Shown: positions 7,398 to 21,665 of the stretch, piece after piece
Numbering within the stretch: position 1 is the first letter of the stretch
Layout: each line of letters begins with the position of its first letter
Assembly (NCBI RefSeq): GCF_040782645.1
Contig: NZ_CP160403.1
Location: forward strand, 6,855,001 to 6,919,000
Length of the DNA stretch: 64,000 nucleotides
Source: Streptomyces sp. HUAS ZL42
GTDB taxonomy: Bacteria; Actinomycetota; Actinomycetes; Streptomycetales; Streptomycetaceae
Direction of reading: 5' to 3'
The notes under the pieces: generated by a model
What the model saw: only the letters and a program-made list of their open reading frames with translations
Told to the model about the DNA's origin: nothing
The model's database searches: none
Program-made: the position numbers and the translations under genes

Positions 7398-7411
7398 TAA
7401 CTAGAACTGGT
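7398..7411. repeat. attL core repeat of the AICE
   Basis: TAACTAGAACTGGT, identical to 21652-21665 just outside the integrase gene. After one mismatch the identity continues for TCAG. Position and orientation fit attachment-site cores. The same bases form half of a KstR-type operator. Confidence 0.65.
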
Positions 7412-7415
7412 TTCA
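7402..7415. promoter_or_regulatory. KstR-type operator upstream of the MBL hydrolase
   Basis: TAGAACTGGTTTCA matches the KstR consensus TnnAACnnGTTnnA at every fixed position, 36 nt upstream of the MBL start codon. It overlaps the left AICE attachment repeat, so its right half is apparently element-derived. Confidence 0.6.
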
Positions 7416-7511
7416 GATCCGATGGGCCTGCGGAAGCTCTACCTGGGAATGCGCTGACCAGCAACGGAGCGGTCGTCATTGGTCGTTGTTGGGCGTCGTG
7501 GGCCGCTGTCG

Positions 7512-7531
7512 GACGGCCCAGGGACGGCCCC
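7512..7531 (+). repeat. left paired GACGGCCCA repeats (candidate integrase/Xis arm sites)
   Basis: GACGGCCCA at 7512 and GACGGCCCC at 7523, start-to-start spacing 11 bp. The same pair with the same 11-bp spacing and orientation occurs at the other end of the element (21557 and 21568). This is what arm-type recombinase binding sites would look like. Confidence 0.5.
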
Positions 7532-7670
7532 GGCGCGGGAGGGCCCGCTGTCGTCCAGGAGTGAGGTGTGGCGGGCGGACGCTGCCAGCCTTCGAAGTGC
7601 TTAGCGATGTGAGAACTGAGTGTGCAGATGTCCGAAGGGGGCTATTCTGGCCGACACGAGGAGGGGAACA

Positions 7671-7853
7671 ATGAGCGTACTGGCGTGGGCGTTTGGCGGC
7701 GTTGGCGGGGCACTTGTAGTTGCTGCGATTGGGTGGTTCATCTTCGACAGGAAGAGCGATACGGCCAAGCAGAGCCAGAGAAGTGGCAGTAATTCCAGGA
7801 ATTATCAAGCGGGTCGGGATCTGACCATCGGTGACATTGAAGAGAAGCCGTGA
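7671..7853 (+). CDS. small membrane protein of a two-gene cargo module
   Basis: This 60-residue protein has one N-terminal transmembrane helix (AWAFGGVGGALVVAAIGWFIF) and a short cytoplasmic tail ending QRSGSNSRNYQAGRDL. The same motif opens the next protein (QRAGDNSTNFQA). ATG 7671 follows a strong GAGGAGGGGA. The stop overlaps the GTG of the next gene (GTGA), so the two are coupled. GC is well below the chromosome, marking recent acquisition. The function is unknown. The shared motif suggests the tail and the N terminus of the partner adopt the same small repeat fold and assemble at the membrane (inference). Confidence 0.75.
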   Translation: MSVLAWAFGGVGGALVVAAIGWFIFDRKSDTAKQSQRSGSNSRNYQAGRDLTIGDIEEKP

Positions 7854-8869
7854 AGCAAATTCAGCGCGCGGGCGACAATTCTACCAATTTCCAGGCGGAA
7901 GTGATTCACGCGGGAATCAGCTATCGTGATGCGCGCGATATTGCCACGGATGTTTATAAGGAGAATATTCCCAAATTTGCCGAGATTGCGCGCGAAGTAG
8001 CCCTCGAGCGTGCGGAAATCTTCAATGAGAAACTTCTCGACGGAATCGCGCCGGAGACTCTGGAGGCATTGAAGGATCCTGACGTCCAGCGGTCCCTCTT
8101 CTTTGCTCAGCAGGAGTATGCATGCTCAGGAGAGGAAGACTTGAGGGATGTGCTTATCGAGCTATTGCGAAAAAGGATGACGAGTCCCGTGAGGGACATT
8201 AGGCAGCTGTCCATAACGGAAAGCCTTAAGACTGCCCCCAAGTTGTCCGCAGCGCACCTTTCCGCTCTCAGTGCGCTCCTGATTCTCATTCGAACAAGAC
8301 TCGGGGTGGCGAACGTCGAGGACTTGCGCAAGAAGCTGCGCGAGATATTGGCTCCCGTTGTAACAGACTTGCATTTGAGTAACGCTGACGTCGCTTACAT
8401 GGAGTACGCCGGTTGCCTGTCTATTCAGATTACGGAGCACTCGATCGGTAGCGTCTTGTTGGAAACCTACAAAGGTTGTTTCACGAGAGGCTTTACGGTA
8501 GAGCAGATCCCGGAGGATGCGCGTTCAGGCATCCGGTCTCTGCTAATGCCATGCCTGCGTGACCCTGCCAAACTGCAAATAGCAAGCCTCAATCAGGATA
8601 TGGTGGCTGAGCTCATCAAGGAGCGTGGACTTGAGGAGTACGCGCAGCAGATTACAGCATTGCTGGATGTCGGCATCATGAACGTCTCCGAAATTGCGGA
8701 GGAATTTGCTGGCCTACATCCCGCTCTGGAAAATCTGGTAAATATCTTCCATTCGACCAGTTTGAAGAGCTGCCAGTTGACGACCGTCGGGACCACGCTT
8801 GCGCACACCAACTTGCGACGCATGGTCGGAGAAGCCTTTGAGCCGAGACTAGACGTCTGGGTCCACTGA
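7850..8869 (+). CDS. unknown protein with N-terminal GDNSxNxQA motif (resembles LPO_1073/Vpar_1526-type proteins)
   Basis: This 339-residue soluble, mostly helical protein opens with QRAGDNSTNFQAEVIHAGISYRD split across a strand-like start. It continues with RDIATDVYKENIPKFAEIAR and amphipathic helices, and has no transmembrane segment. The opening resembles the proteins that databases call LPO_1073/Vpar_1526 family; that recollection is tentative and no biochemical role is known to me. The GTG start overlaps the stop of the small membrane protein. Codon use and AT content are unlike the neighbours. Its place at the AICE end, a usual cargo position, makes a defence or host-interaction role possible but unproven. 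Confidence 0.75.
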   Translation: MKQIQRAGDNSTNFQAEVIHAGISYRDARDIATDVYKENIPKFAEIAREVALERAEIFNEKLLDGIAPETLEALKDPDVQRSLFFAQQEYACSGEEDLRDVLIELLRKRMTSPVRDIRQLSITESLKTAPKLSAAHLSALSALLILIRTRLGVANVEDLRKKLREILAPVVTDLHLSNADVAYMEYAGCLSIQITEHSIGSVLLETYKGCFTRGFTVEQIPEDARSGIRSLLMPCLRDPAKLQIASLNQDMVAELIKERGLEEYAQQITALLDVGIMNVSEIAEEFAGLHPALENLVNIFHSTSLKSCQLTTVGTTLAHTNLRRMVGEAFEPRLDVWVH

Positions 8870-8903
8870 AACGTGACTTCGTCCAGGCTGTACGGGCTCT
8901 CAG

Positions 8904-9581
8904 TTAATGCCTCGCGGCATCCAGGAGCAGAAGCACCGCAGCGGGGTCGCCGTCGTACCTGAGGTGTGGTTCGTCCGGCTCGGGCGGTATGAAGCGAGTT
9001 CGGTACCGCTGAAGGTCGCTTTCGGAGAAGTAGATTGAGTTGGGGTCGTGCGCGTGGGCTTGGTTGCGTTTGCTGATCCTTGACCAGAGTTCGTCGTGAC
9101 TTGCTGCGAGATAGACGAGCACCGGGGTTGCGCCGGCGTCGGTGGCGATAGCTCGCCATCGGGTGCGGTCGTCCGGGGTCCAGAAGCCGTGGTCGACCAC
9201 AACGTCGTGTCCTGCCTTGAGTTGCTCGCGGAGTTCAACCGACACATCCTCAAGGACCGGACGCTCAAGGGTAGGGAAGGTGCCCCGCGGGAAGTCCACG
9301 CCGTACACGCCGTGGCGGCGATACATCTCCTCGTCAGGGCACAGGCGCACGAATCCACGAGCGGTGAGCGCGCGGGAAAGGGTCGTCTTGCCGGAACCGG
9401 GGAGACCAGCCATGAGGACGCAGAACGGCGGGCGTGAGGGCATCGGTCTCGTCAGGGTCCGGGAGATCGCAGACATCTCCGCTTCGGCTTCGGGGGTGAG
9501 TGTGTCGGCACGGTGAGCGGCGAGCAGGGCGTCCAAGCGGTCTTCAAGCACGCTCAAGAGTGTGTCGTCCACGGCCCTCAC
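8904..9581 (-). CDS. P-loop kinase / AAA-family ATPase (zeta-toxin or nucleotide-kinase-like)
   Basis: This 225-residue P-loop protein has Walker A GLPGSGKTT after the strand FCVLMAG, then LCPDEEMYRR and VVVDHGFW, the layout of small-molecule kinases such as zeta-toxin or chloramphenicol-phosphotransferase relatives. A lid-like region follows (SKRNQAHAHDPNSIYFSE). I chose the GTG at 9581 because it overlaps the GntR stop (GTGA) and has GGAGGT upstream; a longer ATG start at 9608 would lose that. It is cotranscribed with the GntR regulator at the AICE left end. The substrate is unknown. Confidence 0.8.
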   Translation of the reverse strand: MRAVDDTLLSVLEDRLDALLAAHRADTLTPEAEAEMSAISRTLTRPMPSRPPFCVLMAGLPGSGKTTLSRALTARGFVRLCPDEEMYRRHGVYGVDFPRGTFPTLERPVLEDVSVELREQLKAGHDVVVDHGFWTPDDRTRWRAIATDAGATPVLVYLAASHDELWSRISKRNQAHAHDPNSIYFSESDLQRYRTRFIPPEPDEPHLRYDGDPAAVLLLLDAARH

Positions 9582-10336
9582 TGAGAGACCTCCGATTCCG
9601 TCCGCCACGTGCGACCAGGGCCCCCAAGGTCGACACCGTACTCCACGATGTTGCCCTCGCTATCGATGAACTTCGCTGTCATCACGACCACGGGTTCCGT
9701 CGGCGGGTTCTCAGGATCCAGCTCCAGAAGCTGTGCGTCCTCCTCCGTCAGCAGGCGCGCTGAAGCAGTGTCGATCCGATGGGTGATCGGGAGGCCAGTC
9801 GCCTCGGCAATGAGCTGAAGCGAGGTACCCCCGGTCAACCGCTCGCTCTGTGCCAACTGGGGGATCAGCTTTCCGTACCGAGGCGGGATCCAAGACGTAC
9901 TGTGCGCCACAATGCCGTGCCGGTCCCTGTATACGCGGCGCCGGCGGATCACGTCGGAGCGAGGTTCGATGCCCAGTGCTTGGGCCACCTCTGGGGGCGC
10001 GGTAACTACAGCGGCCTGGTGTGAGTCGGACCGCTCGCCTGATCCCCAGCTTGATCCGGTACGGCGACCTCGGTCCTGACGCTGAGATCCCGAAGACATC
10101 GGAGCGGGTTGATCCAGGACTTCCGTCCCGATCCCGTGGATCCCCCTCACTAGGCCCTCGTTGCGCAGCTTGCGCAACGCCTTCTCCGCTGTCGCGGTGC
10201 TGACGCTCCACTCCTCCGCGAGGTTCTTGATGCTCGGCAGCAGCGATCCCGGCGGCAGCTGGCCAGACGTGATCAGCTCCGTGTAGTGGGCGGCAATCTT
10301 CGCGTATGGCGCTCGATTGTCAGCCTGACCAGCCAT
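9578..10336 (-). CDS. GntR/HutC-family transcriptional regulator of the AICE (KorSA-like role)
   Basis: This 252-residue regulator has an N-terminal winged helix (YAKIAAHYTELITSGQLPPGSLLPS split by SIKNLAEEWSVSTATAEKAL) and a C-terminal UTRA ligand-binding domain starting near VVTAPPEVAQALGIEPRSDV. In pSAM2-type elements the GntR protein KorSA represses transfer and excision; the position here suggests the same. ATG 10336 has AAAGGAG upstream. Direct and inverted GGGAACC repeats in its promoter are the likely operators, giving autoregulation. It is coupled to the downstream kinase. Confidence 0.85.
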   Translation of the reverse strand: MAGQADNRAPYAKIAAHYTELITSGQLPPGSLLPSIKNLAEEWSVSTATAEKALRKLRNEGLVRGIHGIGTEVLDQPAPMSSGSQRQDRGRRTGSSWGSGERSDSHQAAVVTAPPEVAQALGIEPRSDVIRRRRVYRDRHGIVAHSTSWIPPRYGKLIPQLAQSERLTGGTSLQLIAEATGLPITHRIDTASARLLTEEDAQLLELDPENPPTEPVVVMTAKFIDSEGNIVEYGVDLGGPGRTWRTESEVSQ

Positions 10337-10366
10337 TTCGTCTGCTCCTTTGTCTCTGCTCCCTGC

Positions 10367-10418
10367 GGTTCCCTAGCTTACCGCTTGACACCGCAGGGAA
10401 CCCTAGGGAACCTTAGGG
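10367..10418. promoter_or_regulatory. GntR operator/promoter region with GGTTCCCTAG repeats
   Basis: GGTTCCCTAG (10367-10376) is inverted relative to two tandem copies, GGGAACCCTAGGGAACC (10396-10412), plus CTTAGGG. A TTGACA hexamer (10385-10390) lies between them. The arrangement, 31-82 bp upstream of the GntR start, is a good autoregulatory operator cluster. Confidence 0.65.
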
Positions 10419-10956
10419 ATGTGCCCGCCGGTAGGGACGTAGGCCGAGGGGTGCTGTGCCTAGGTATGTCCGCATTGATGGCGGATCTACCGGCTCGGAG
10501 CAGCGTCAACGCCCGGAGGAAAGCCCGCAGGGGTGAGTACGAAGGCAGCGTCAGTTGGTTGAGAATTCAATAGGGATTCAAGTGCGACGGGGTGTGAGCC
10601 CCCGTCTCCGCAACGGCCCGGGTGACGGCCGTCGGTGGCCACTTTGAGGCGGGCGAACCTGTCCCGCCCTGCGTGTCAGCTCTGGAGAAACATCCGTAGG
10701 GATCATCCCTTCCCTTCAGGGAGGTCAGCCCCTCGGGTGCCACCTGGTGCGCTGCCGCCCTGCTGGCGTCAGAGCAGTGAGGATGACGCGCCCGATTTCC
10801 GGCTCGGGACCGTGCTCCGTGGCAACGGCGCACCGGTGAAGCCCGGTCTCGCTTCTTCCTGGCTTCGCAGCATCGATCGCTGCGGCCGGTTGCCTCCGCT
10901 GCTCGTCTTGTACGAGCAGCGCTGAGGGGAGCCGGATGTTCCGACTTCAACGGCGC
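10419..10956. other. non-coding stretch of the AICE
   Basis: About 540 bp between the GntR promoter and the DUF6284 leader hairpin. No open frame has both a ribosome site and convincing residues. It is rich in short inverted repeats (for example CCCTTCCCTTCAGGGAGG) and probably holds the long leader and promoter of the 11026-13166 operon. An origin function cannot be excluded. Confidence 0.4.
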
Positions 10957-10986
10957 GCACCCCCGGAGCGGCAACTCCGGGGGTGC
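10957..10986 (+). terminator. perfect hairpin in the leader of the DUF6284 operon
   Basis: GCACCCCCGGAG, a 6-nt loop, then CTCCGGGGGTGC: a 12-bp perfect stem, 40 nt before the first gene. There is no U-run, so it is either an attenuator-like leader structure or a protein-binding site as much as a terminator. Confidence 0.5.
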
Positions 10987-11025
10987 TGTTCGGGCCGTTC
11001 CACCTGTGAGAGGAACCACGACCCA

Positions 11026-11292
11026 ATGAGCCACATCGTCACTGTTCAGACCGCTGTTACCGCGTTCGCCGACTGGATCGAACCGACGGATGCGGAGTTG
11101 GACGCGATCGAGCAGGAGTCTCCGCTGATCCTGGCAGAGGTCGACCTGCTCGACGCGCAGATCATCACCCTGGATCGCGCCCCGTCCGAGTTGGACGCCC
11201 AGCGCATCCGCCGCGCCCGCCGCCGCCTGCTCGCGGCCCGCCGCACCCTCGCCAACCAGACCGGCACGGCCACCGCCGGCGGTGTGGCGTGA
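11026..11292 (+). CDS. DUF6284 family protein
   Basis: This 88-residue small acidic-then-basic protein starts MSHIVTVQTAVTAFADWIEP and has a helical RIRRARRRLLAARRTL stretch. It is a recurrent first gene in Streptomyces AICE and plasmid transfer operons; its function is unknown. Start ATG 11026, with GAGAGGA upstream. The stop overlaps the GTG of the next gene, so the block to 13166 is one coupled operon. Confidence 0.8.
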   Translation: MSHIVTVQTAVTAFADWIEPTDAELDAIEQESPLILAEVDLLDAQIITLDRAPSELDAQRIRRARRRLLAARRTLANQTGTATAGGVA

Positions 11293-12152
11293 GGGCCAAG
11301 ACTGTTCTGCCTGCCGTCGCTATGACGGCCGTGTCCATGGTCCTCACGCTGGCTGTGGTCGTGATGTGGCTGGGCACAGCCGTGCCGTGGCCCGTCGCCC
11401 TAGTCGTCGGTCTTGGTATCGACGGGGGATGGCTGGCCACTCTGGCCTACGAACGCCGGTTGGCCGCGCAGGGCGACCACAGCCGCATCGTGACCGCCGT
11501 GGGATGGTGCTTCGGCCTCATCGCCGCTGGCGTCCTGGTCGCCCACGCCGTGAGTGCTGACCACGCGGCCGGCGCGTGGCTGGCCGTGGCATGGCTGCCG
11601 ATCGCGGCCAAGGCCCTGTGGCTGGTCCACGGACTGTGGGAGCGCACCGCGCTGACCCCGCTGGCACTGGACGCGATCCGGGGCATCCGGCAGGAGGCCC
11701 GCGACGAAGCAGCCGTGGCCCGCGCACGCCTGCGGGCGGAAGCGGCCACCGAGGAGACCCGACTGACGGCCGTCACGGCCGCCGGGGCACGCGTCGCACG
11801 CGTCCAGGCACAGACCGCCAAGATGCTCTCGCAGGCCTGGTCGACGCTGGAAACCGCGCGCCAGCGTGAGGGCACGGGCAAGGCGCTGACCAGCGTGACG
11901 AGCCCCGTCACACCCGGTGTCCCGGCCCGCTGGGAACTGCCCGTGTGGGGCCCGAGCGAGCCGACCAGGACGCCCGTGCTGGACGCCGCGCCTGCGCTGT
12001 CCGATGACGTGCTGGACGCGCTGGTCGACGAGATCCGTCACAGCGAAGACCCCGCCCTGTCCTACCGCGAGATGGCCACCCGCTTTCGTGCGGCCGGCCA
12101 CTCCGCCTCCGAGGTCCGTCTTCGGGCCGCGTGGAAGCGCGTGGTCGCCTGA
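11289..12152 (+). CDS. membrane protein with C-terminal coiled/helical domain (DUF2637/SpdB-like spread protein)
   Basis: This 287-residue protein has about four transmembrane helices in the first 125 residues (TAVSMVLTLAVVVMWLG, WPVALVVGLGIDGGWLATLAY split, WCFGLIAAGVLVAHAV, LAVAWLPIAAKALWLVHG). A long charged helix rich in Ala/Glu/Arg follows (about 130-200). The tail DPALSYREMATRFRAAGHS looks like a helix-turn-helix. This layout is that of Spd-type proteins thought to spread conjugated DNA between hyphal compartments. The GTG start overlaps the DUF6284 stop. Confidence 0.75.
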   Translation: MRAKTVLPAVAMTAVSMVLTLAVVVMWLGTAVPWPVALVVGLGIDGGWLATLAYERRLAAQGDHSRIVTAVGWCFGLIAAGVLVAHAVSADHAAGAWLAVAWLPIAAKALWLVHGLWERTALTPLALDAIRGIRQEARDEAAVARARLRAEAATEETRLTAVTAAGARVARVQAQTAKMLSQAWSTLETARQREGTGKALTSVTSPVTPGVPARWELPVWGPSEPTRTPVLDAAPALSDDVLDALVDEIRHSEDPALSYREMATRFRAAGHSASEVRLRAAWKRVVA

Positions 12153-12544
12153 TGCCCGCCGCGTACGCCAAGTGCTACGACCCGTCCGGCGCCCGCTACG
12201 GCGTGCCCACCTACCCCTGGAAGCTGGCCCCCGACGGGATGGCCACCCGCCGGCAGTTACGGGCCCAGGGCCTGCGTCCGGGCGGTCAGCCGATACAGGC
12301 GCAGGTCATGCGGATCAACCGCCGTACCGGCGGGCCGCGCGTTGCCTACCTCTACCGCGAAGACCTCGCGCTTCCGGTACGGCCGATGACCTCACGCAAG
12401 TGGGGCGCCCTCGCGCTGGCGATGCTGGCTCGCCGCACCTGCCCGAAGTGCCGCATCACCTACAGCTACTGCATGCCCCGCTCGCTCGGCATCTGCGTGC
12501 TGTGCGCCTTCCCGGACAACTGCGCATCCCCGACAGGGAGCTGA
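12152..12544 (+). CDS. RRQRL-motif zinc-binding protein
   Basis: This 130-residue protein has the motif TRRQLRAQGLRPGGQP near residue 35 and a putative zinc site CPKC...CVLC (TCPKCRITYSYC and ICVLCAFPDNC). It belongs to the small RRQRL-motif proteins common in Streptomyces AICEs; their role is unknown but the Cys pairs suggest nucleic-acid binding. ATG 12152 overlaps the previous stop (TGATG). Confidence 0.75.
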   Translation: MPAAYAKCYDPSGARYGVPTYPWKLAPDGMATRRQLRAQGLRPGGQPIQAQVMRINRRTGGPRVAYLYREDLALPVRPMTSRKWGALALAMLARRTCPKCRITYSYCMPRSLGICVLCAFPDNCASPTGS

Positions 12545-12546
12545 CC

Positions 12547-12864
12547 ATGGGCAAGCCCAACACCCGTCGCCTGGACAAGGAGATCCGGCTGACGGAACGC
12601 AAGATCGAAGCGGTGCAGAACGAGGAAATGTGGCCGCTGAACAGTGCCGAGCGGCGCAAGGTCGTGGGCGCGCTCGCGGGCGGCTCCTACCGGGTGCTGC
12701 GGGGCAAGAGCACCGGCCGCGCCGAACGCGCCCTTGAGCAGGTCTGGAACGCGGTCAACATGCGGCTGACCGCTGAGCTGACCGCGTTGCAGATGGAGCG
12801 GCAGCGCATCGTGACCGAGGCAGCCAAGGAGAAGGCTGCCAAGAAGTCCTCGGGGTGGTGGTGA
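12547..12864 (+). CDS. small basic helical AICE protein
   Basis: This 105-residue, highly charged helical protein (TRRLDKEIRLTERKIEAVQN; ERALEQVWNAVNMRLTAEL; lysine-rich C terminus ending KKSSGWW) has no transmembrane helix or known domain. ATG 12547 lies 2 nt after the previous stop, behind the sequence GGGAGCTGACC. It is probably cytosolic and part of the transfer operon. The function is not known. Confidence 0.7.
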   Translation: MGKPNTRRLDKEIRLTERKIEAVQNEEMWPLNSAERRKVVGALAGGSYRVLRGKSTGRAERALEQVWNAVNMRLTAELTALQMERQRIVTEAAKEKAAKKSSGWW

Positions 12865-12866
12865 GC

Positions 12867-13166
12867 ATGGACGGCCGTTGCCCCGCCGCTCACCCGGAAG
12901 ACCCCACGCCCTGCGTCGGTCCGGTCGTGGTGAGCGTGCTGGACGCGGCGGGCGCCGGCGCCGACGGGTGCGAGCACCACGGCGCCCGGCTGCTGGCCTC
13001 CCTCGACGGCGGACGCGTCTACGCCCTGCCCGACGCCCCGCCCGGCGCCGCCATCCGCACCTTCACCGCCGCCGCCGGTATCCGCCCGTTCTGCTGGCTC
13101 GACGGCCCGCGTACCGAGCCGTCGCAGCTCAGCCACATCGAGAACCGCGCCCGCCGCGGGCGCTGA
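12867..13166 (+). CDS. hypothetical AICE protein
   Basis: This 99-residue protein has CPAAHPEDPTPC and CEHHGARLLASLDGG segments, whose Cys/His residues could bind a metal. I placed the start at ATG 12867; a GTG at 12861 overlapping the previous stop (GTGA) is equally possible. It is the last gene before the translocase. A 100-bp spacer separates it from the ftsK-like gene. Confidence 0.65.
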   Translation: MDGRCPAAHPEDPTPCVGPVVVSVLDAAGAGADGCEHHGARLLASLDGGRVYALPDAPPGAAIRTFTAAAGIRPFCWLDGPRTEPSQLSHIENRARRGR

Positions 13167-13265
13167 ATCGCGCCGCCGGGGTGGCCGCGCTTTCCCGCAT
13201 GCCCAGCCACCCGGCACCCTCTCTCAACTCCCGCCCCGATCGGGGCAGTCAGGAGCAATCCCCGC

Positions 13266-15383
13266 ATGTCCGAGAACGTCGTTCACCTGCACAAGAACAC
13301 CGAACCGACCGCCGATGAGGCGAGCGTGACCACGCTGACCGTGGTGCCCGACCCGGCGCCCGCCAAGCCCGTGCCGCTGTGGGTGCGCTCCGGCCGCGCG
13401 GTGAAGCACGCGGTGACCCACGAGACCACCAAGACGACCGTGCGCGCGGTCGCGCGGCACAGCCTCTACACCGTCAACGGGGGCCGGATCGTGGCCCGTC
13501 GCGCCTGGGACGGCAAGACCGGCGCCCGCTATGAGCGCATGCTGCGTGCCGCTGAGGCTGCCGGCAACTTCGAGGTGGCCGAAGAGTGGGAGGACCGCCT
13601 CCAGCGCTTCCGCGAGGCCCGCCACCGCCGCCGCATGGACCTGCTCCACTCGCCCGTCGACGCTGCCAAAACCGTCGGAGTCGGCGTCGGTATGAGCATC
13701 GGCGTCCTGGTGGCGCTCGGGGTCGTGATGGCCATCAACAACCACGACGTCGGCGACGTCATCACCCCGCTCGCGGCCACCATCGAGTTCATTGGCCTGC
13801 TCATCAGGATCGTGCAGATCGTGTGGGGTCCCGCCCTCGTCATCGGCCCGTTCCTGGCCCTGCTGGCGCTGTGGACGGTCGGCAGCAAGCAGCAGGCCGC
13901 CCCCGCCTGGGCGCTGCCCGCGAACGTTCGATCCGGCGAGGGTGAGCCGATTACCCCGTCCATCGTGGTCAAGGCCCTGCGTGACCTGGGGGTCGCTCCG
14001 CTGCGGGGCGCCATCAAGGAGATGGGCGACGCCGGCGCGTCCATGCTGTCTCCGATCCGGATCGCCGGATGTGGCGTGGAAGTCGACGTCACGCTCCCGT
14101 CCGGAGTGTCGACCAACGAGGTGCAGAACAAGCGGCGCAAGCTCGCCGAGAACCTCACCCGGCACGAACACGAAGTCTTCATCACCATCCCCGAGGCCGC
14201 CCGCACGGTCCGACTGTGGATCGCCGACTCCGGCGCGCTGGACGAGCCGATCGGCCCGTCCCCGCTGGTCACCGACGAGACACTGACCGCCGACTACGCC
14301 AAGGGCCGCGCCCCCTGGGGGCAGGACCTGCGCGGGGATGCTGCGAGCCTGAGCGTGTATCAACGCCACCTGCTCATCACCGGCCTGTCCAACCAGGGCA
14401 AGACCGCCGCCCTGCGCGCCCTCGCCCTGTGGCTGGCCCTGGACCGGTCGGTCGAGTTCTGGATGGGCGACCTCAAGGGCGCCGGCGACTGGGCCATGTT
14501 CGACGGGCTCGCCACCGTCCTGATCCAGGGGCCGACCGATGACCACGTCATCCAGGTGACCGAGATGGCCGAGGACGCCGTGGAGGAGATGAACCGCCGT
14601 CTCCAGGCGCCGCCCGGCACGGAGTTCCCGCTGCTGGTCGTCATCGTGGACGAGGCGCAGGTGGCGTTCATGTGCCCGGTCAAGGACAAGGAAAAGCGCC
14701 CGTACGGTGGCTCCAGCGCCACATCCCGGTACTTCATGGCCGCCCGGAAGATCCACAACCAGGGGCGAGCCGTGAACGTGCTGCTGTGGCAGGGCACCCA
14801 GGACCCCACCGACCAGAACCTCCCCAAGCTCGTTCGCGAGGGCGCCCACACCCGCGCCTCGCTCGCGCTGGGCACGGAGTCCCAGGCCCGCATGGCGCTG
14901 GGAGACAAGGCGGTCGACGGCGGCGCCGCGCCGAACCTGCTGCGTCCGGGTCTGGACAAGGGCACCCTCGTGGTCGCCTCCGACGGGATCGAGATCCCCA
15001 AGGGGCAGTCGTCCATCACGGTGCGCACGCACTACATCAGCACCGAGGACGCCACCGCGATCGCGGAGCGTGCCAAGGCGATGCGCGACGGGGTCACCAC
15101 CTTGCACGTCGTCGACCGAGGCGAGGAGCGTGACCCGCTCGCGGACATCGCCTCCGTGGTCGGCGACGCGACCCGGGTGCGCACGCAGGACGTTCTCAAG
15201 CGGCTCGCGGTGCTCAACGCGGACGCATACGGCAAGTGGTCGTTCCTCGATCTCAAGCGCGTCCTGGACGGCACAGGAGCCGAGCCGTACAAGTCCGACG
15301 GGGTCATGGTCGTGGGCCGTGACCGCCTCGCCCGTGCCCTCGCCAACCGCGACGGCGACGGTTCCGCTTCCGCCTCCCAGTGA
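13266..15383 (+). CDS. FtsK/SpoIIIE-family DNA translocase, TraB/TraSA-like conjugation protein
   Basis: This 705-residue motor is the main transfer protein of AICEs. It moves double-stranded DNA between mycelia as a hexameric ring. Transmembrane helices lie near 140-165 and 180-205. The ATPase domain has Walker A GLSNQGKT (373-380) and Walker B VVIVDEAQ (D462, E463). A C-terminal winged-helix-like region (VLKRLAVLNADAYGKWSFLDL split) fits the gamma-like DNA-recognition domain that binds 8-bp TRS repeats in clt. Candidate repeats lie directly downstream. ATG 13266 is preceded by GGAGCAATCCCGC. Confidence 0.88.
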   Translation: MSENVVHLHKNTEPTADEASVTTLTVVPDPAPAKPVPLWVRSGRAVKHAVTHETTKTTVRAVARHSLYTVNGGRIVARRAWDGKTGARYERMLRAAEAAGNFEVAEEWEDRLQRFREARHRRRMDLLHSPVDAAKTVGVGVGMSIGVLVALGVVMAINNHDVGDVITPLAATIEFIGLLIRIVQIVWGPALVIGPFLALLALWTVGSKQQAAPAWALPANVRSGEGEPITPSIVVKALRDLGVAPLRGAIKEMGDAGASMLSPIRIAGCGVEVDVTLPSGVSTNEVQNKRRKLAENLTRHEHEVFITIPEAARTVRLWIADSGALDEPIGPSPLVTDETLTADYAKGRAPWGQDLRGDAASLSVYQRHLLITGLSNQGKTAALRALALWLALDRSVEFWMGDLKGAGDWAMFDGLATVLIQGPTDDHVIQVTEMAEDAVEEMNRRLQAPPGTEFPLLVVIVDEAQVAFMCPVKDKEKRPYGGSSATSRYFMAARKIHNQGRAVNVLLWQGTQDPTDQNLPKLVREGAHTRASLALGTESQARMALGDKAVDGGAAPNLLRPGLDKGTLVVASDGIEIPKGQSSITVRTHYISTEDATAIAERAKAMRDGVTTLHVVDRGEERDPLADIASVVGDATRVRTQDVLKRLAVLNADAYGKWSFLDLKRVLDGTGAEPYKSDGVMVVGRDRLARALANRDGDGSASASQ

Positions 15384-15563
15384 CAGGGAGCCATTCCCGC
15401 CCGGGGCAGGGAGGCAGGGAGAACTCCCTGACCCCCTCCCTGCCCCGGCTCCCTGGCCCTGACCTGCACTGATGATCACTCAGGGAGGCAGGGAGGCACC
15501 CCAGGTCAGCGCCCGAAAACCCCCTCCACAACGCCTCCGGAAGGGGGTGTCTCTTCCTCCCTG
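15384..15563. repeat. cluster of CAGGGAGG octamers downstream of the translocase (candidate clt locus)
   Basis: Exact CAGGGAGG copies start at 15407, 15481 and 15489, and exact inverted copies (CCTCCCTG) at 15435 and 15556. One-mismatch copies start at 15384, 15415, 15423 and 15448. The inner part forms a long imperfect palindrome around 15401-15448. TraB-type translocases recognise repeated 8-bp motifs in a non-coding clt locus beside their gene, which this matches in place and form. Confidence 0.6.
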
Positions 15564-15587
15564 ACCCACTGCCGGAAGGGATTCCGC

Positions 15588-16052
15588 ATGTACCCCGAAC
15601 CCGCCCGCCAGGTGTCCGCCGAACGGGCCGTGGAAGTCCGCCAACCCACCCCGATACAGCCCATCGTCGCGGTTCCGGCGCCGCACGTTCCCGTCCAGCC
15701 GGGCACCGTTCCGGCGGTGACGAGCATCGTCCTGCCCGACGGCCGCGTGGTCACCGGCTACGCCCTCGAACCCGCCAAGCCCGAACCGATCGCGGCGAAA
15801 CCGCCCGTCTCCGGCGCTGCCGTGAACGTCGCCCTCGGGGGCGTCGGGTTCCTTGCCGTATGTGGCGGACTGCTGCTGCTCACCACATTCATCACCGCCC
15901 TGACCGCGCTGATCACCCAGCTCATCACGCTCGCCGCCGTCATTTTCGGCGGATGGATCGCCGTGCAGGTGCTCGGCTCGAGCAGCCGCAAGGGCGGCAC
16001 GACGGTGAACATCCGCCGCGCCGTCATCAAGCGGAACCACTTCCACGGCTAG
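15588..16052 (+). CDS. SpdD-like small membrane protein
   Basis: This 154-residue protein has a Pro/Val-rich N-terminal part (PAPHVPVQPGTVPAV), then two hydrophobic helices (VALGGVGFLAVCGGLLLLTT; LITLAAVIFGGWIAVQVL) and a basic C terminus (NIRRAVIKRNHFHG). Position after the translocase and two-helix topology fit spread proteins that assist intramycelial transfer. ATG 15588 follows GGAAGGGATTCCGC. Confidence 0.7.
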   Translation: MYPEPARQVSAERAVEVRQPTPIQPIVAVPAPHVPVQPGTVPAVTSIVLPDGRVVTGYALEPAKPEPIAAKPPVSGAAVNVALGGVGFLAVCGGLLLLTTFITALTALITQLITLAAVIFGGWIAVQVLGSSSRKGGTTVNIRRAVIKRNHFHG

Positions 16053-16071
16053 CAGGGCAATGCCGTGCCGG

Positions 16072-17100
16072 CTATGGCTGGTTGTAGGCGAGCGGCCAGC
16101 CGGCGAAGCCGCCGTCGTCGGTCTGGTAGACCAGCTCTACGTACTCCTCACCGAGGAGATCCTTCACATCCTCGGTGGGCTCGCTGGGCAGCAGCACAGC
16201 AACCCGCAGTTCCCTGCGCCCGGGGATGTGGCGGCGGTAGTCGGCCAACTGCCCGATAGCCATTCGGACATTAGCCCGGGTCGTCAGTCCCTTCGCCTCG
16301 TACAGCGCGTGATCCGTCGCGTCGTACAGGTCAGGCGTCAGCGCCCCGGGCTCACCCTCGATGGTGATCTGGAAGCTGTGGGTCTTGTGGCCGGCCGCGG
16401 TCAGATGCGCCACGAACGCCTTGACCAACTCTCCTTCACGGCGCAGCACCTTGCGCTGCCCGGCAGGAATGTCCGCGACGGTCTCGGCGGTGCTGTGCTG
16501 CTCGGTCCTCTTGACCTTCGCTCCGCTCTGCTTCGGCAGTGCGACAGGTTCCGGCACCTCAACGACGGGTTCGACGATCTCGACATCCGACTTCGCGGCG
16601 GCCGGCATCCGGTCTGCCTCCGTCCACGCTGGCGTGGTTCCCTCAGCCGGCCGGAACCGGAAGACGAGCACGTTGCGCATCAACCCGTCCTTGCCGGGCC
16701 CGCGCCGAACGTCGTACGGCTTGATCGGGTCCAGCACCATCTGACCGATGTAGCGCTGCTGCATCGCACCGCTACCCGGCACCCTGCCGTGCGCGACGAA
16801 CAGATGCACCTCGCGGCCCTTTTCGGCATGGGTGATCAGGGACCCGTTGCGGCCTGAAGGCTTGTGGTGTCCATTGGCGCCGGCGCCGGTGTACAGGTAC
16901 AGCGGCCCGAACTCGTCGTCTTCGGCGCGGCCATCGAAGGTGTAGCCGTACTCCTCACCCGCCGACGGGTCGGAGTACACGAACACCATGCCCGCCTCGT
17001 CAGCCGGCTCGATGCCCTGGAACGTCCCGCAGCCATAGGCCGCCGCGATGGCATCGCGCGTCGTCACCAAACCGGGCACAAGATCAACGCTCGTCGTCAT
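16072..17100 (-). CDS. predicted modification-sensing nuclease: SRA/YDG-like N domain fused to PD-(D/E)XK
   Basis: This 342-residue protein is on the strand opposite to the transfer and replication genes. Residues 20-150 (SDPSAGEEYGYTFDGR; LYLYTGAGANGHHKPSGRNG; VHLFVAHGR; RYIGQMVL; NVLVFRFRP) follow the strand order of PUA/SRA-like base-sensing domains found in modification-dependent enzymes. Residues 250-290 hold a PD-(D/E)XK core: PD (256-257), E268-A-K270, then Q284xxxY288. This suggests recognition and cleavage of modified or foreign DNA, a type IV-like restriction factor carried by the element. The domain calls are from pattern only. ATG 17100. Confidence 0.65.
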   Translation of the reverse strand: MTTSVDLVPGLVTTRDAIAAAYGCGTFQGIEPADEAGMVFVYSDPSAGEEYGYTFDGRAEDDEFGPLYLYTGAGANGHHKPSGRNGSLITHAEKGREVHLFVAHGRVPGSGAMQQRYIGQMVLDPIKPYDVRRGPGKDGLMRNVLVFRFRPAEGTTPAWTEADRMPAAAKSDVEIVEPVVEVPEPVALPKQSGAKVKRTEQHSTAETVADIPAGQRKVLRREGELVKAFVAHLTAAGHKTHSFQITIEGEPGALTPDLYDATDHALYEAKGLTTRANVRMAIGQLADYRRHIPGRRELRVAVLLPSEPTEDVKDLLGEEYVELVYQTDDGGFAGWPLAYNQP

Positions 17101-17240
17101 GGCGCGACCTTAACCACCCCCACTGACACCCTGCCGCCCCATTTCCCGGGGCGCAGGCAAAAGGGCGACCCCCCTTCCGCCAAGAACGCGGGGCCGCCCT
17201 CATCACCCAGCACCCTGCAACAGGACTGGAGACATCCAGC

Positions 17241-18146
17241 ATGACCCATGACCCCCGTTCCGCGCTGCTACGCGCAGCGCTGGAAGCCGCCGAACGCGGT
17301 TGGCACGTCTTTCCGCTCCGGCCCGGCAGCAAGCGGCCCGCCCTCCACGGAGAACGCACCTGCACCCGCACCGGCCCGTGCGCGAGCGGCCACCTGAAGT
17401 GGGAGCAGCGTGCCACCACCGACGCCGACCGCATCCGGACCGCCTGGTCGGGGGCGCCGTTCAACGTCGGTATCGCCACCGGCCCCTCCGGGCTGCTGGT
17501 CGTCGACCTGGACGTGCCGAAGGACAAGGGCAGTTCGGACGCGCCTAGCGGCGCGGCGACCTTTGGAGCGCTCTGCGAGCGCGCCGGGCATGCCGTCCCC
17601 ACCACCTACTGCACCCGGACCGCGAGCGGCGGACAGCACCTGTACTTCACCGCCCCGAACGGCATCCGCCTCGCCAACACGGCAGGAGCCGTCGGCGAGT
17701 TGGTCGACACCCGCGCTTGGGGCGGCTACGTCGTCGCTGCCGGCAGCATCACCCTCGCAGGAGCCTACGAAGCCCTGTGTGGCCCCGTAACGGCCTCTCT
17801 GCCCTCGTGGCTGCAAAGCATCCTGCAACCCGCACCCAAGGCTTCTCAGGCCCCTTCAGTGGCCTTATCGGGGCAATCTCGCCGATACGCGGATGTAGCG
17901 CTCGCCAACGAGACGCGGAACGTAGCCACGGCCCAACTCGGGGAGCGCGAGCGGAAGTTGTTCGTTGCGGCGCGCGCCCTGGGACGGTTCGTCGCGTGGG
18001 GCGACCTCCCCCGGCACGTGGTTGAGCAGGCTCTTCAGGAGGCAGGCGAGGCGGCTGGACTCGCCGCGTCCGAGTGCCGCTCCACCCTCCGCAGCGCCCT
18101 CAACTGGTCCATCGCCCACAACCAGACCAGGAGGGATGCAGCATGA
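17241..18146 (+). CDS. bifunctional DNA primase/polymerase (prim-pol)
   Basis: This 301-residue replication protein has the family start AAERGWHVFPLRPGSKRPAL, an arginine/cysteine-containing CTRTGPCASGHLKWEQRAT segment, and the catalytic acidic pair VVDLDVPKDKG. Later come TASGGQHLYF (the conserved GGxH) and AGAVGELVDTRAWGGYVV. It primes replication of the excised element. ATG 17241 follows GGACTGGAGACATCCAGC. Its stop overlaps the next start (ATGA). Prim-pol plus helicase places the element in the RepPP-type AICEs. Confidence 0.88.
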   Translation: MTHDPRSALLRAALEAAERGWHVFPLRPGSKRPALHGERTCTRTGPCASGHLKWEQRATTDADRIRTAWSGAPFNVGIATGPSGLLVVDLDVPKDKGSSDAPSGAATFGALCERAGHAVPTTYCTRTASGGQHLYFTAPNGIRLANTAGAVGELVDTRAWGGYVVAAGSITLAGAYEALCGPVTASLPSWLQSILQPAPKASQAPSVALSGQSRRYADVALANETRNVATAQLGERERKLFVAARALGRFVAWGDLPRHVVEQALQEAGEAAGLAASECRSTLRSALNWSIAHNQTRRDAA

Positions 18147-18493
18147 GCACCCCTCCCCGCCTCTCCCTGAAGAGCATCACCGAGACCCCGTCCGGGCCGT
18201 CCGCCGCTCCGCAGCCCGTGGACACGACGGCCGTCGGCGCGCCGAAAGTCGCCGCCCGCAAGGGCGTCCGAACATGCCCTGACCCGCAGCAGGGCGACGG
18301 CCGGTATCCCGTCGCCTGGCTGCACATCCGCGCACCGTACGGCGCCACCCCGAGCGCGACGTCGACGTGCCTGTGCGGCCGGCACCGCACCGCCGTCGGC
18401 GAGCGCCGCGTGCACGCCCTGATCACCGACCACACCGCCCACCGCGACAACTGCCCGCTCCGCGCACCCAGGGAAGGGAGGACTGCGGCATGA
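18143..18493 (+). CDS. small Cys/His-containing protein between prim-pol and helicase
   Basis: This 116-residue protein has a disordered N-terminal half rich in Pro/Thr and a C-terminal part with TCLCGRHRTAVGERRV and DNCPL. The Cys/His residues (also RTCPDP) could form a zinc ribbon. It is coupled on both sides by ATGA overlaps, so it is made in step with the primase and helicase and is probably a replication accessory. No family was recognised. Confidence 0.7.
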   Translation: MSTPPRLSLKSITETPSGPSAAPQPVDTTAVGAPKVAARKGVRTCPDPQQGDGRYPVAWLHIRAPYGATPSATSTCLCGRHRTAVGERRVHALITDHTAHRDNCPLRAPREGRTAA

Positions 18494-19941
18494 CGGACCC
18501 CACCACGACCGAGACCGAAGAACTTCCGCCGCCGTCCAACCCCATGGCCGTGGCCCGCCGCATCCTGCCCGACTGGCAGACCCAGGACGGACAGCCCGTA
18601 TGCCGCCGCTGGCGCACGTCCTGGATGCGCTGGAACGGCACCTGCTGGCGGGAGCTGGACGAAGAGCAGGTCCGCAAGGCCATGTATGAGCGCCTGGAGC
18701 ACGCCGTCTACCGGGCGCCAGCCAAGGACGGCCAGACCGAGGAGCGTGCCTGGGCACCCACGAAACCAAAGATCAGCAACCTGCTCGATGCCCTCGGGTC
18801 CATCACCCTGCTGCCCACCGAGGTCGACGCTCCCACCTGGACAGACGCAGAGAGCGAACAGGACGACGGGCCGATCGTGGCATGCGAGAACGGCCTGTTG
18901 CGCATCCGGGACCGCGCACTGCTGCCGCACACCCCTGACTTCTTCAACCTCGTGTCCGTCCCCTTCGCCTACCGCCCAGAGGCGACCGCACCGACCTGGG
19001 AAGCGTTCCTGACACAAATCTGGCCCAACGACCCCGACGCCATCCAGGCCCTTCAAGAGTGGTTCGGCTACGTCCTCTCAGGCCGCACCGACCAACAGAA
19101 GATCCTGCTCATGGTCGGCCCGTCCCGCTCCGGCAAAGGCACCATCGCCCGCGTCCTCAAAGAGCTGGTCGGCAAAGAGAATCTTGCCGGGCCCACGCTC
19201 GCCGGACTCGGCACCAACTTCGGCTTGTCCACCCTGATCGGCAAGCCACTCGCGGTCATCGCCGACGCCCGGCTGTCCGGCAACGACAACAGTCAAGTCG
19301 TCGAACGGCTCCTGACCATCTCCGGCGAGGACACCATCGACATCGACCGCAAATACCGCGCCGTGTGGACCGGCAAACTGCCCACCCGGCTGGTGATCCT
19401 GTCCAACGAGTTGCCGCACTTCGGCGACTCCTCCGGCGTCATCGCCCGCCGCTTCATCCTGCTGAACATGACGGTGTCCTGGCTGGGCAAGGAAGATCCC
19501 ACCCTGTTCGATCGGCTCGTTGCCGAGATGCCCGGCATTCTCAACTGGGCCCTGGAAGGGCTCGCCCGCCTCCAGCGCACCGGCCGAATCACCGAACCGG
19601 CCTCCAGTCGTGAAGCCATCACCACCATGCAGGACACCGCCTCACCCACCTCCGCGTTCATCCGGGAACGCTGCACCACCGGACCCACCTGCTCCGTGCC
19701 CGTGGACGCGCTGTGGAACGTCTGGCGGGAGTGGGCCGAGGACAACGGCGTCCGCCCTGGCACCAAGCAGGTGTTCGGCCGCAACCTGCTCTCCGTCGTC
19801 CCCCAACTCAGCCGCTCCAGGCCCCGCGACGCGTACGGCCGGCAGGTGGTCACCTACACCGGGATCACGCTGAACATGTCCGAACCACATTTGCCTGAGT
19901 CGCGACTCATCGCCTCTCAAGCCCCCTCTGAGCGCCGCTGA
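18490..19941 (+). CDS. phage/plasmid primase-helicase, P4 family (SF3 helicase, D5-like)
   Basis: This 483-residue replication helicase has an N-terminal D5-type region (PDFFNLVSVPFAYRPEA; TQIWPNDPDAIQALQEWFGY split), then SF3 Walker A GPSRSGKGT (from G210, with K216). Walker B-like PLAVIADAR and the sensor strand RLVILSNELPHFGD follow, and RRFILLNM closes the ATPase. It unwinds element DNA for prim-pol. ATG 18490 overlaps the previous stop and has GGGAGGACTGCGGC. The two 14-bp palindromes before xis start inside its last codons. Confidence 0.88.
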   Translation: MTDPTTTETEELPPPSNPMAVARRILPDWQTQDGQPVCRRWRTSWMRWNGTCWRELDEEQVRKAMYERLEHAVYRAPAKDGQTEERAWAPTKPKISNLLDALGSITLLPTEVDAPTWTDAESEQDDGPIVACENGLLRIRDRALLPHTPDFFNLVSVPFAYRPEATAPTWEAFLTQIWPNDPDAIQALQEWFGYVLSGRTDQQKILLMVGPSRSGKGTIARVLKELVGKENLAGPTLAGLGTNFGLSTLIGKPLAVIADARLSGNDNSQVVERLLTISGEDTIDIDRKYRAVWTGKLPTRLVILSNELPHFGDSSGVIARRFILLNMTVSWLGKEDPTLFDRLVAEMPGILNWALEGLARLQRTGRITEPASSREAITTMQDTASPTSAFIRERCTTGPTCSVPVDALWNVWREWAEDNGVRPGTKQVFGRNLLSVVPQLSRSRPRDAYGRQVVTYTGITLNMSEPHLPESRLIASQAPSERR

Positions 19942-19962
19942 GTGCCGATGAGTCGCGACTCA
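19896..19962. promoter_or_regulatory. two perfect TGAGTCGCGACTCA palindromes upstream of xis
   Basis: The 14-bp palindrome occurs at 19896-19909 and 19949-19962, 53 bp apart (about five helical turns), on the same DNA face. Partial TGAG half-sites lie between. One copy is inside the end of the helicase gene and the other lies 33 bp before the xis start. It is most likely an operator controlling xis-int; an iteron role is also possible. Confidence 0.65.
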
Positions 19963-19994
19963 GAGCAATGTATTTCCAACTCGTGGAGGACTCA

Positions 19995-20240
19995 GTGAGC
20001 GCGCCCGCCCCCGTCCGAGACGACCCCCGCGCCATCCTCCGGGGTGGTCTCCCGGACCGGTACCTCACCGCTGACGACATAGCTGTGATCTTCAAGGTGC
20101 CCAAGGAAACCGTCTACCAGTGGCGCAAGAAGCGCATCGGCCCGCCCGGCTTCCGAATCGGCAAGTACATCCGTTACGACCCCGCTGACGTGCGCGCATA
20201 CGTCACCGGTCGCAAGGACGCCGAGCGCGACACCGCCTGA
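19995..20240 (+). CDS. xis: excisionase (MerR/AlpA-type helix-turn-helix)
   Basis: This 81-residue recombination directionality factor is built on a winged helix: RYLTADDIAVIFKVPKETVYQW split by a turn, then RIGPPGFRIGKYIRYDPADVRAYV. It assists the integrase in excising the element. I chose GTG 19995 because GGAGG lies 6 nt upstream; an upstream ATG at 19968 lacks a site. It sits directly before int, as in pSAM2-type elements, and behind the paired palindromes. Confidence 0.85.
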   Translation: MSAPAPVRDDPRAILRGGLPDRYLTADDIAVIFKVPKETVYQWRKKRIGPPGFRIGKYIRYDPADVRAYVTGRKDAERDTA

Positions 20241-20262
20241 CCGAATACCCCACCAAAGACAG

Positions 20263-20291
20263 AGGGAGAGCCGCTATCGGCGGCTCTCCCT
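20263..20291 (+). terminator. hairpin between xis and int
   Basis: AGGGAGAGCCG, 7-nt loop, CGGCTCTCCCT: an 11-bp perfect stem 23 nt after the xis stop and 30 nt before the int start. It could attenuate int expression relative to xis. No T-run follows. Confidence 0.6.
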
Positions 20292-20320
20292 GCTGCTTGT
20301 CGAGAAGGGACCGCCGCCAC

Positions 20321-21586
20321 ATGGCCGGCCACATCCAAGACCGCTGGTACAAAACCGAGAAGGACGCCAACGGCAAGACCATCCGCGTCAAGACCGACCG
20401 GTACGGCACGGGCATGCGCTACCGGGCCCGGTACGTCGGCCCGGACGGAACCGAGAAGTCCAAGAGCTTCCCCGACGGCAAGAAGCGTCTAGCCGATCAG
20501 TGGCTTGCCCAGATTGAGGCCGACATGGCGCGGGGGCAGTACGTCGATCCCAAGGCTGGCCGCACCACCTTCCAGCAGTACGCCGAACGCTGGGTCGCTG
20601 CGCAGACGACCGACGTTTCCACCCGAGCGGGCACAGAGTCCCGACTCAGGCTGCACGCCTACCCGCACATCGGTTCCCGCCCGCTCAGCTCCTTCCAGCC
20701 GGAGCAAATCCGCACGTGGTCAAGGCAGTTGGAAGACAAGGGTCTTGCCGCGTCGTACCGGCGGGTCATCTTCGCCAACGTCTCCGCCGTATTCACGGCA
20801 GCCTTGGACGACGGATTGATCAGTAAGAACCCCTGCCGTGCAGCCTCAGTGAAGGCGCCGGCAATGGTGCCCAGTCGAGTGCGGCCCTGGACGGCCGAGC
20901 GCGTATTCGCCGTACGTGCCGCCCTGTCTGAGGGCTACCGCGCCATGGTGGACGCGGGCGGTGGTTGCGGCCTACGGCAGGGCGAGATCTTTGGTCTCCC
21001 TGTCGATGAAATCAACTTCCTGAAAGGGTGGTTGCACGTCGGCTATCAGGTGAAGTTGGTCGACAATCAGGCCGTATTCGCACCTCCGAAGCGCGGCAAG
21101 GTGCGTGACGTTCCGCTGCCCGAGCGGGTTGGGCAGGCATTCGCGGTTCACATGAAGCGATTTCCGCCTACGGAGGTGACGTTGCCGTGGCTTGTCCCAG
21201 GAGGGCAGCCCGTGACGAAGAAGCTTATGTTCACCGCTCCCGAAGGCGGTGCGCTCGTGCGGCACAACTTCAACCGGGATGCCTGGAAGCCCGCCCTGGT
21301 GTCCGCTGGAGTCCTCCCTGAGCCTGAGCAGGGCCAACGGATCGCGGAATCGCGCGAGGACGGCATGCATGCGCTCAGGCACTTCTACGCGTCCGTCCTG
21401 CTCGACGCGGGGGAGAACATCAAGGCGTTGAGCCGCTACCTGGGGCACAGCGACCCTGGGTTCACCCTGCGGGTCTACACGCACCTCATGCCGAGCAGCG
21501 AGAGCCGCACGCGGCGGGCGGTCGACGGCGTGTATCGGGCCGCTCGTGAGGGCGATGACGGCCCACAGACGGCCCACGCGGCATGA
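20321..21586 (+). CDS. int: tyrosine recombinase / integrase of the AICE
   Basis: This 421-residue site-specific recombinase has an N-terminal arm-binding part (MAGHIQDRWYK; GTGMRYRARYVGPDG), a SAM-like core-binding domain (about 80-165) and a catalytic domain. The catalytic residues are R219 (GCGLRQGE), H350-x-x-R353 (HALRH), H376 (LGHSDP) and Y386 (VYTHL). All are present, so it should be active. I chose ATG 20321; a TTG at 20297 is less likely. The C-terminal codons contain the GACGGCCCA repeats, and the attachment repeat lies 66 bp beyond the stop. Confidence 0.92.
   Translation: MAGHIQDRWYKTEKDANGKTIRVKTDRYGTGMRYRARYVGPDGTEKSKSFPDGKKRLADQWLAQIEADMARGQYVDPKAGRTTFQQYAERWVAAQTTDVSTRAGTESRLRLHAYPHIGSRPLSSFQPEQIRTWSRQLEDKGLAASYRRVIFANVSAVFTAALDDGLISKNPCRAASVKAPAMVPSRVRPWTAERVFAVRAALSEGYRAMVDAGGGCGLRQGEIFGLPVDEINFLKGWLHVGYQVKLVDNQAVFAPPKRGKVRDVPLPERVGQAFAVHMKRFPPTEVTLPWLVPGGQPVTKKLMFTAPEGGALVRHNFNRDAWKPALVSAGVLPEPEQGQRIAESREDGMHALRHFYASVLLDAGENIKALSRYLGHSDPGFTLRVYTHLMPSSESRTRRAVDGVYRAAREGDDGPQTAHAA
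21557..21576 (+). repeat. right paired GACGGCCCA repeats (candidate arm sites)
   Basis: Two exact GACGGCCCA copies at 21557 and 21568, 11 bp apart, inside the last codons of int. They mirror the left-end pair at 7512 and 7523. Confidence 0.5.
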
Positions 21587-21592
21587 AGTAGC

Positions 21593-21623
21593 CCCCCACC
21601 AGCGGTGAACCCGCTGGTGGGGG
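21593..21623 (+). terminator. terminator hairpin after int
   Basis: CCCCCACCAGCGG, 5-nt loop, CCGCTGGTGGGGG: a 13-bp stem starting 7 nt after the int stop. It isolates element transcription from the aldehyde dehydrogenase promoter. Confidence 0.75.
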
Positions 21624-21651
21624 CCTATCTGGCGTTAGGTCTGGCCTAGTT

Positions 21652-21665
21652 TAACTAGAACTGGT
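21652..21665. repeat. attR core repeat of the AICE
   Basis: TAACTAGAACTGGT, identical to 7398-7411, 66 bp after the int stop. Host sequence begins here; the following bases complete a perfect dyad. Confidence 0.65.

Follow-up and report, generated by a model that had tools for sequence, protein, structure and literature searches.

We analysed a 64,000-nucleotide window (bases 6855001–6919000) of the single-contig, 9.87-Mb genome of Streptomyces sp. HUAS ZL42, which carries between positions 7398 and 21665 an element resembling the actinomycete integrative and conjugative elements (AICEs), lodged between divergent genes for a metallo-β-lactamase (MBL)-fold hydrolase and an aldehyde dehydrogenase. 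The explanation that we favour, and consider fairly probable as a whole, is the replacement of control halves at a reused promoter-operator site. A tyrosine integrase would have inserted the element by site-specific recombination within TAACTAGAACTGGT, at a point inside the promoter-operator common to the two genes. The uninterrupted block would be an old, family-wide regulatory sequence, used repeatedly by elements of at least two integrase lineages whose ends carry substitutes for the halves they displace. At the MBL promoter, a KstR-type operator would be completed by the left end; the right end would provide a hexamer 17 bp upstream of TATCAG, and the dyad would stay with the aldehyde dehydrogenase gene, so that each gene would have an operator copy after insertion. 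Once an element decays, both of its ends would remain between the two genes, probably acting as their promoters.

The repeat TAACTAGAACTGGT is present as an exact 14-bp copy at 7398–7411 and 21652–21665, with similarity extending as TAACTAGAACTGGT[T/A]TCAG over 18 of 19 positions. The integrase stop codon at 21586 lies 65 bp ahead of the right copy, and no further copy with up to two mismatches was found in the window (shuffles give 0.02). The dyad AGAACTGGTATCAGTTCT is complete on the right, and its left counterpart is AGAACTGGTTTCAGATCC, with three mismatches; AGAACTG-N4-CAGTTCT occurs at a single place in the genome. The sole tRNA gene of the window lies at 2172–2263. The first-pass annotation had described an intact AICE with the repeat at both ends, inserted outside a tRNA gene, whose outer flanks join into one dyad that the right copy keeps whole and the left copy does not; these points are supported, the element being intact-looking and AICE-like and the joined flanks being found uninterrupted in relatives. 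The sites at the two ends are:

7398..7416, + strand: attL, TAACTAGAACTGGTTTCAG.
21652..21670, + strand: attR, TAACTAGAACTGGTATCAG.
21657..21674, + strand: complete dyad AGAACTGGTATCAGTTCT, kept by the aldehyde dehydrogenase gene.
21672..21688, + strand: second, adjoining imperfect dyad, TCTGAAACACCGTCAGA.

For the empty site we used 80 Streptomyces loci, the best matches listed in a search with the MBL protein, in 78 of which the aldehyde dehydrogenase gene divergently adjoins the MBL gene. A script classified 12 loci as merged and 60 as two-site (split). Eight loci stayed unclassified: five belong to a clade with a collapsed variant, L044 runs into a contig end, L064 includes no aldehyde dehydrogenase gene and probably has the same element as L143, and L078 is merged by eye, bringing the uninterrupted junction to 13 of 80. 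Merged sites have a layout like CATTGCCCACTATAACTAGAACTGGTATCAGTTCTGA; the 18-bp dyad is identical in three of the 12, the others having one or a few differences. Scanning separately for CTAGAACTGGTNTCAG, we obtained matches in 84 of 392 genus genomes; each of the 30 places fetched adjoins the aldehyde dehydrogenase gene. Other genera of the family yielded 35 genomes with an MBL match, of which 25 loci were examined: 18 retain the block, its TTG hexamer standing 17 bp ahead of TATC[AT]G or TAACAG, a pattern not matched in L208, L211, L219, L221, L224, L234 and L235. As the block is retained across sister genera, it is host sequence older than the element, and the identification of attB as a conserved promoter-operator, not a tRNA gene, is well supported by these comparisons.

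Other elements occupy the same bases, which makes a repeatedly used landing site (hotspot) a well-supported interpretation. Besides the window element, wider stretches revealed three more: L142 has 13.2 kb between its att sites, L143 has 10.2 kb and then a 0.77-kb remnant, and L179 has 11.0 kb and then a 0.22-kb remnant; L181 holds a similar remnant alone, as before such an integration. In L143 and L179 the element thus stands in tandem with an older remnant at the same site, indicating that accretion occurs. L236, from another genus, is a decayed 3.8-kb element between attL and attR that retains only the C-terminus of its integrase (residues 337–423, 75% identical). Two of the 29 integrase relatives fetched (L090 and L093) sit at the same place, and others adjoin the ends of glnA and nusG (one locus each by profile, the remaining labels coming from short motifs). 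In a quick integrase tree of 31 rows, L090, L093 and L179 group together (99), adjoining an integrase located at the nusG 3′ end, and the window's integrase stands apart, its own position being poorly supported. Well-supported branches force two origins on the four site users; two integrase lineages use this hotspot. A further locus, L216 (G218), has 11.6 kb between the MBL gene and an attR-like site; lacking attL and any match to the window's integrase, it was excluded. In L211 (G468, another genus), the MBL-side site continues into different DNA (AGAACTGATTCTACGTCAG), possibly a further element at this position.

Insertion changes the sequence on both sides of the junction, at the following positions:

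7388..7393, + strand: TTGCCC, the presumed former −35-like hexamer of the aldehyde dehydrogenase promoter, left on the MBL side; it stands at the same place in merged loci and sister genera.
7394..7399, − strand: TATAGT, the putative −10-like hexamer of the MBL promoter.
7402..7415, + strand: TAGAACTGGTTTCA, a full KstR consensus match made by insertion.
21642..21647, + strand: TGGCCT, an element-borne hexamer 17 bp before TATCAG, proposed as the new −35.

On the left, TAGAACTGGTATCA becomes TAGAACTGGTTTCA; the empty sequence fails the KstR consensus TnnAACnnGTTnnA, and the attL sequence matches it. The full consensus also stands at attL of L143, L179 and L236 and on the MBL side of the remnants L145, L182 and L181. 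On the right, the att bases of the empty site are probably the −35/−10 spacer of the aldehyde dehydrogenase promoter. Merged sites have TTGCCC 17 bp before TATCAG in 11 of 12 cases and TTGCTC in the other one. The hexamer at that place in the split loci is TGGACT in 56 of 60, TGGCCT in two and TTGCTC in two, unchanged when the alignment is anchored on TATCAG alone; among 91 cores in other fetched loci (repeats between searches included), it is TGGACT in 46, TTGCCC in 24, TGGCTT in nine and something else in 12. At attR it reads TGGCCT in the window, TGGACT in L142, L143 and L236, and TGGACC in L179. A TGG hexamer in the same register is therefore supplied by both element lineages, that of the window being represented by one intact element. 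We infer that these hexamers function in promoters, and regulation may be preserved unchanged after insertion. The earlier proposal was the opposite, namely that insertion into an operator common to both genes rewires or uncouples two promoters at each move. In its favour, the long dyad lacks its right arm at the left copy, and insertion separates the former TTGCCC from the aldehyde dehydrogenase gene; however, the left end yields a KstR-consensus site, and in both lineages the hexamer of the right end keeps the 17-bp spacing. With likely substitutes carried at both ends, we regard rewiring as unlikely and do not retain that claim.

A candidate reader of the operator is encoded 20 kb from the element and has a consensus site of its own:

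41842..42465, − strand: KstR-like TetR regulator (NF033703, 6.1e-60, 202 bits, nearly the whole model length).
42605..42618, + strand: KstR consensus site upstream of the KstR-like gene.
58184..58197, + strand: KstR consensus site upstream of MaoC, alcohol dehydrogenase (ADH) and short-chain dehydrogenase/reductase (SDR) genes.

Four KstR consensus sites lie in the window (attL at 7402–7415, 27121, 42605 and 58184) against 0.07 expected. The genome has 31 occurrences, compared with 15 for the reversed pattern; finding four of the 31 in the window has P 4.8e-5, and finding three of 30 without attL has 1e-3. A perfect TAGAACCTGTTCTA stands directly ahead of an acyl-CoA dehydrogenase gene at 4844115. 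Eight TetR genes besides the window's gave no KstR match at E 1e-10 (9 of the genome's 128 TetR matches tested). The KstR-like protein may bind attB or attL. The label 'KstR-type' given to the operator at first pass holds in part: the half-sites AGAAC/GTTCT and the nearby KstR-like regulator agree with it, but in the empty dyad the half-sites are 8 bp apart, and none of the 12 merged sites matches TnnAACnnGTTnnA. Separately, CTGACACACCGTCAG at 58122–58136, upstream of the MaoC gene and adjoining a KstR consensus site, resembles the second dyad at 21672–21688; a second regulator common to these two places is possible.

Two separate operator copies, whose presence in relatives the first-pass annotation had taken to speak against insertion, do occur in 60 of the 80 Streptomyces loci, and we read them as old attL/attR remnants. 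The split loci have the consensus CACTATAACTAGAACNNGTTTCGATGGGAGCCC on the MBL side and CCGTGGACTCCTCCGAGTGGAACTGGTATCAG on the other, with the merged-site block cut inside the att core; in the same registers, intact L142 has GTTTCAATGGGTGCCCAAGTC and CCGTGGACTACTTTAACGAGAACTGG. Using an end consensus derived from 55 split loci (5 of 60 dropped), we observed agreement for L142 at 13/16 positions on the left (0 of 200000 random stretches did as well) and 11/18 on the right (1209 of 200000), for L143 at 11/16 (121 of 200000) and 12/18 (251 of 200000), and for L179 at 11/16 (112 of 200000) and 11/18 (1245 of 200000), whereas L236 agrees on the right side only (3/16 left; 11/18 right, 1162 of 200000). 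Because the flanks of the cut match element ends in consensus, the split form is likely to represent the attL and attR left by lost L142-like elements. The L143 remnant retains, little altered, the stretch found 3′ of int in the intact element, ahead of CCGTGGACTCCTTTGACCAGAACTGGTATCAG; it and L236 would be decay intermediates. The remnants L145, L181 and L182 have attL and attR with no match to the window's integrase between the sites, and we take them to be CIME-like (putatively cis-mobilisable). Among the 60 split loci, L081 alone retains TTGCCC on its MBL side, so that simple excision from old fossils is disfavoured; the merged Streptomyces loci may never have been hit or may have been restored by recombination.

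The split loci could also be explained by a two-site arrangement that is the older host regulation, with elements that captured host sequence and merged sites that arose by deletion. The predominance of split loci (60 of the 80) would agree with this, as would the separate KstR-like core on the MBL side of six sister-genus loci. Within genus g13, a full KstR consensus stands beside MBL in L221 and a similar site in L219; both resemble the MBL-side sites of split Streptomyces loci, and the dyad of other genera was looked for on the dehydrogenase side of the two loci and not found. Merged Streptomyces loci are moreover scattered over a tree of 96 aldehyde dehydrogenase genes, with 10 changes between merged and split (L143 is missing from it, its gene being cut by the locus end). 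However, in the six sister-genus loci the block TTG...TAGAACTGGTATC[AT]G, or a variant of it, is whole on the dehydrogenase side, whereas the split Streptomyces loci have it interrupted within the att core, and the flanks of the cut match the ends of L142, L143 and L179. L236 and the L143 remnant fit as intermediates of decay, and TTGCCC, which a split locus would not regain by deletion, is still present in merged Streptomyces loci. We therefore consider an older two-site state improbable.

A second alternative concerns the dyad itself, which might be an integrase core site only, its conservation being uninformative on a regulator. The MBL side of the split loci, anchored on ACTATA alone (55/60 loci), has 1.69–2.0 bits in the arms AGAAC and GTT, compared with 0.38 and 0.58 in the two centre bases, and the centre of the fossil palindrome takes 11 different dinucleotides while the arms are kept. 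The full KstR consensus is matched in 16 of the 60 loci and TnnAACnnGTT in 56. Kept arms around a drifting centre form the conservation pattern of an operator and, since this centre lies inside the block common to attB and attP, not that of an attachment site. Although the imperfect palindrome AACTAGAACTGGTT, seen by eye, is centred on the crossover region and no regulon of the long dyad was seen, the dyad is also kept in genera where no element was seen at it, which leaves the core-site account the least likely of the alternatives.

Several observations weigh against the replacement of control halves. A sigma-70 consensus scan gave no promoter at either element end, and the attL of L142 is without the first T of the KstR consensus and so is not a full match. 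The KstR-like protein scores below the curated cut-off (202 against 280 bits), and a genome-wide regulon of the long dyad was not found: allowing up to one mismatch, nine places matched, compared with 13 for the control. The window's own ends are unlike the split consensus (2/16 left, 7/18 right), and by this comparison the window element is of another lineage than that which left the fossils. Finally, 14 of 19 sister-genus spacers scanned contain the dyad, and six of these 14 (L223, L228, L229, L230, L232 and L233, in genera g9, g3 and g5) have the additional KstR-like core TnnAACnnGTT, on the MBL side 68–139 bp before the dyad, with no element match seen. To judge by these six loci, a spacer can have two operators without an insertion.

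Two further arrangements were seen among the Streptomyces spacers. A clade of five species (L027, L046, L066, L070 and L077) has no MBL-side operator, CACTATA being joined directly to CGTGGACTCC, and an element-like right end makes up most of the remaining spacer. Spacers of 0.3–1.8 kb between fossil ends (L004, L023, L040, L080 and similar loci) may hold small genes.

Read from its right end, the element encodes a tyrosine integrase, an excisionase-like helix-turn-helix (HTH) protein, a D5/P4 primase, a Prim-Pol protein, an FtsK-like protein and a GntR/UTRA regulator, and both flanking host genes point outward from it:

6296..7366, − strand: MBL-fold hydrolase, left host flank (NF053820, Strvi_7410 family, E 3.4e-205).
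9578..10336, − strand: GntR/UTRA regulator of the element.
10936..11292, + strand: DUF6284 protein of the element.
13266..15383, + strand: FtsK/SpoIIIE-like putative transfer protein (PHROG FtsK-like, 2.1e-21; Pfam PF01580, 22.1 bits, cut-off 24).
17241..18146, + strand: Prim-Pol replication protein (PF09250, 1.4e-44).
18367..19941, + strand: P4/D5-type primase (profile matches).
19968..20240, + strand: excisionase-like HTH_17 protein (profile matches).
20297..21586, + strand: tyrosine integrase (profile matches).
21756..23213, + strand: aldehyde dehydrogenase, right host flank (profile match).

AICE recognition rests, in the excerpted text of a published survey (PMC3218068), on kinds of module like those seen here: a site-specific integrase gene adjoining one att site, a replication module (RepSA, RepAM or Prim-Pol; here Prim-Pol plus the D5/P4 primase) and an FtsK/SpoIIIE transfer protein. 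The FtsK-like protein is the weakest of these modules, and a search of it against PDB sequences gave zero matches. The predicted gene content supports an intact-looking, AICE-like element. The same genome encodes a second integrase, 71% identical to that of the window (G000:C1:4467159-4468427). Elsewhere in the window, 29298–31448 is a single 716-aa reading frame in which a TerD domain is joined to an Mrr-type restriction endonuclease domain.

In its modules the element is like pSAM2, SLP1 and the 144 AICEs of that survey, which, in the excerpts used, share a tyrosine integrase by att, an excisionase-like protein, Prim-Pol, GntR and an FtsK-like protein (PMC3218068). It differs in its site, a divergent promoter-operator, as the vast majority of tyrosine-integrase AICEs are reported in the same excerpts to use tRNA genes at their 3′ ends, the exception being the pSLS integrase subfamily; the likeness to pSLS, in avoiding tRNA genes, is one of site type (PMC3218068). 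The contrast with tRNA-using elements drawn at first pass thus stands for AICEs in general but is weaker for this integrase clade, in which, among the loci of 29 relatives, a single one has a tRNA gene, at a distance of 1.4 kb from the integrase. A Streptomyces population study counts, in its excerpted text, 36 tRNA, 14 protein-gene and one intergenic site and describes accretion and decay; its hotspots are similar in having tandem elements, partial integrases, flanking repeats and empty sites in relatives, and the excerpt does not describe operator or promoter replacement (PMC9513070). Elements in dusA, and SXT in prfC, give the host gene a new promoter, and in this they are similar; according to the part of the source drawn on, they insert at a coding gene's 5′ end and also replace its N-terminus (PMC8409611), whereas the window element touches no coding sequence and would serve both genes of a divergent pair. 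In mycobacteria, the KstR consensus TnnAACnnGTTnnA overlaps the −10 region, often between divergent genes, as here; the excerpted description gives 2 bp between half-sites (PMC1995591), compared with 8 bp in the empty site, and the strict consensus arises here only after insertion. What looks new is an AICE site at a promoter-operator with apparent operator replacement, promoter resupply and hotspot accretion and decay being known. Neither an AICE at this gene pair nor operator replacement turned up in the literature searched, which lacked most subscription journals.

Elements landing in tRNA genes rebuild the tRNA, and some landing in genes resupply a promoter. Here, attP looks to carry spare operator and promoter halves for two divergent genes, and insertion may be silent. 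A wider proposal, to which we give somewhat less than even credence, is that the MBL and aldehyde dehydrogenase promoters now found in most Streptomyces that have this gene pair are domesticated AICE ends: two integrase lineages would have converged on one KstR-type operator, the attP of each carrying operator and −35 halves that can be exchanged, and decay would have left each gene its own operator, now under selection. The many fossil copies would form a natural series on mobile-element ends becoming host regulatory DNA, and this series also bears on why an operator can be a good landing site.

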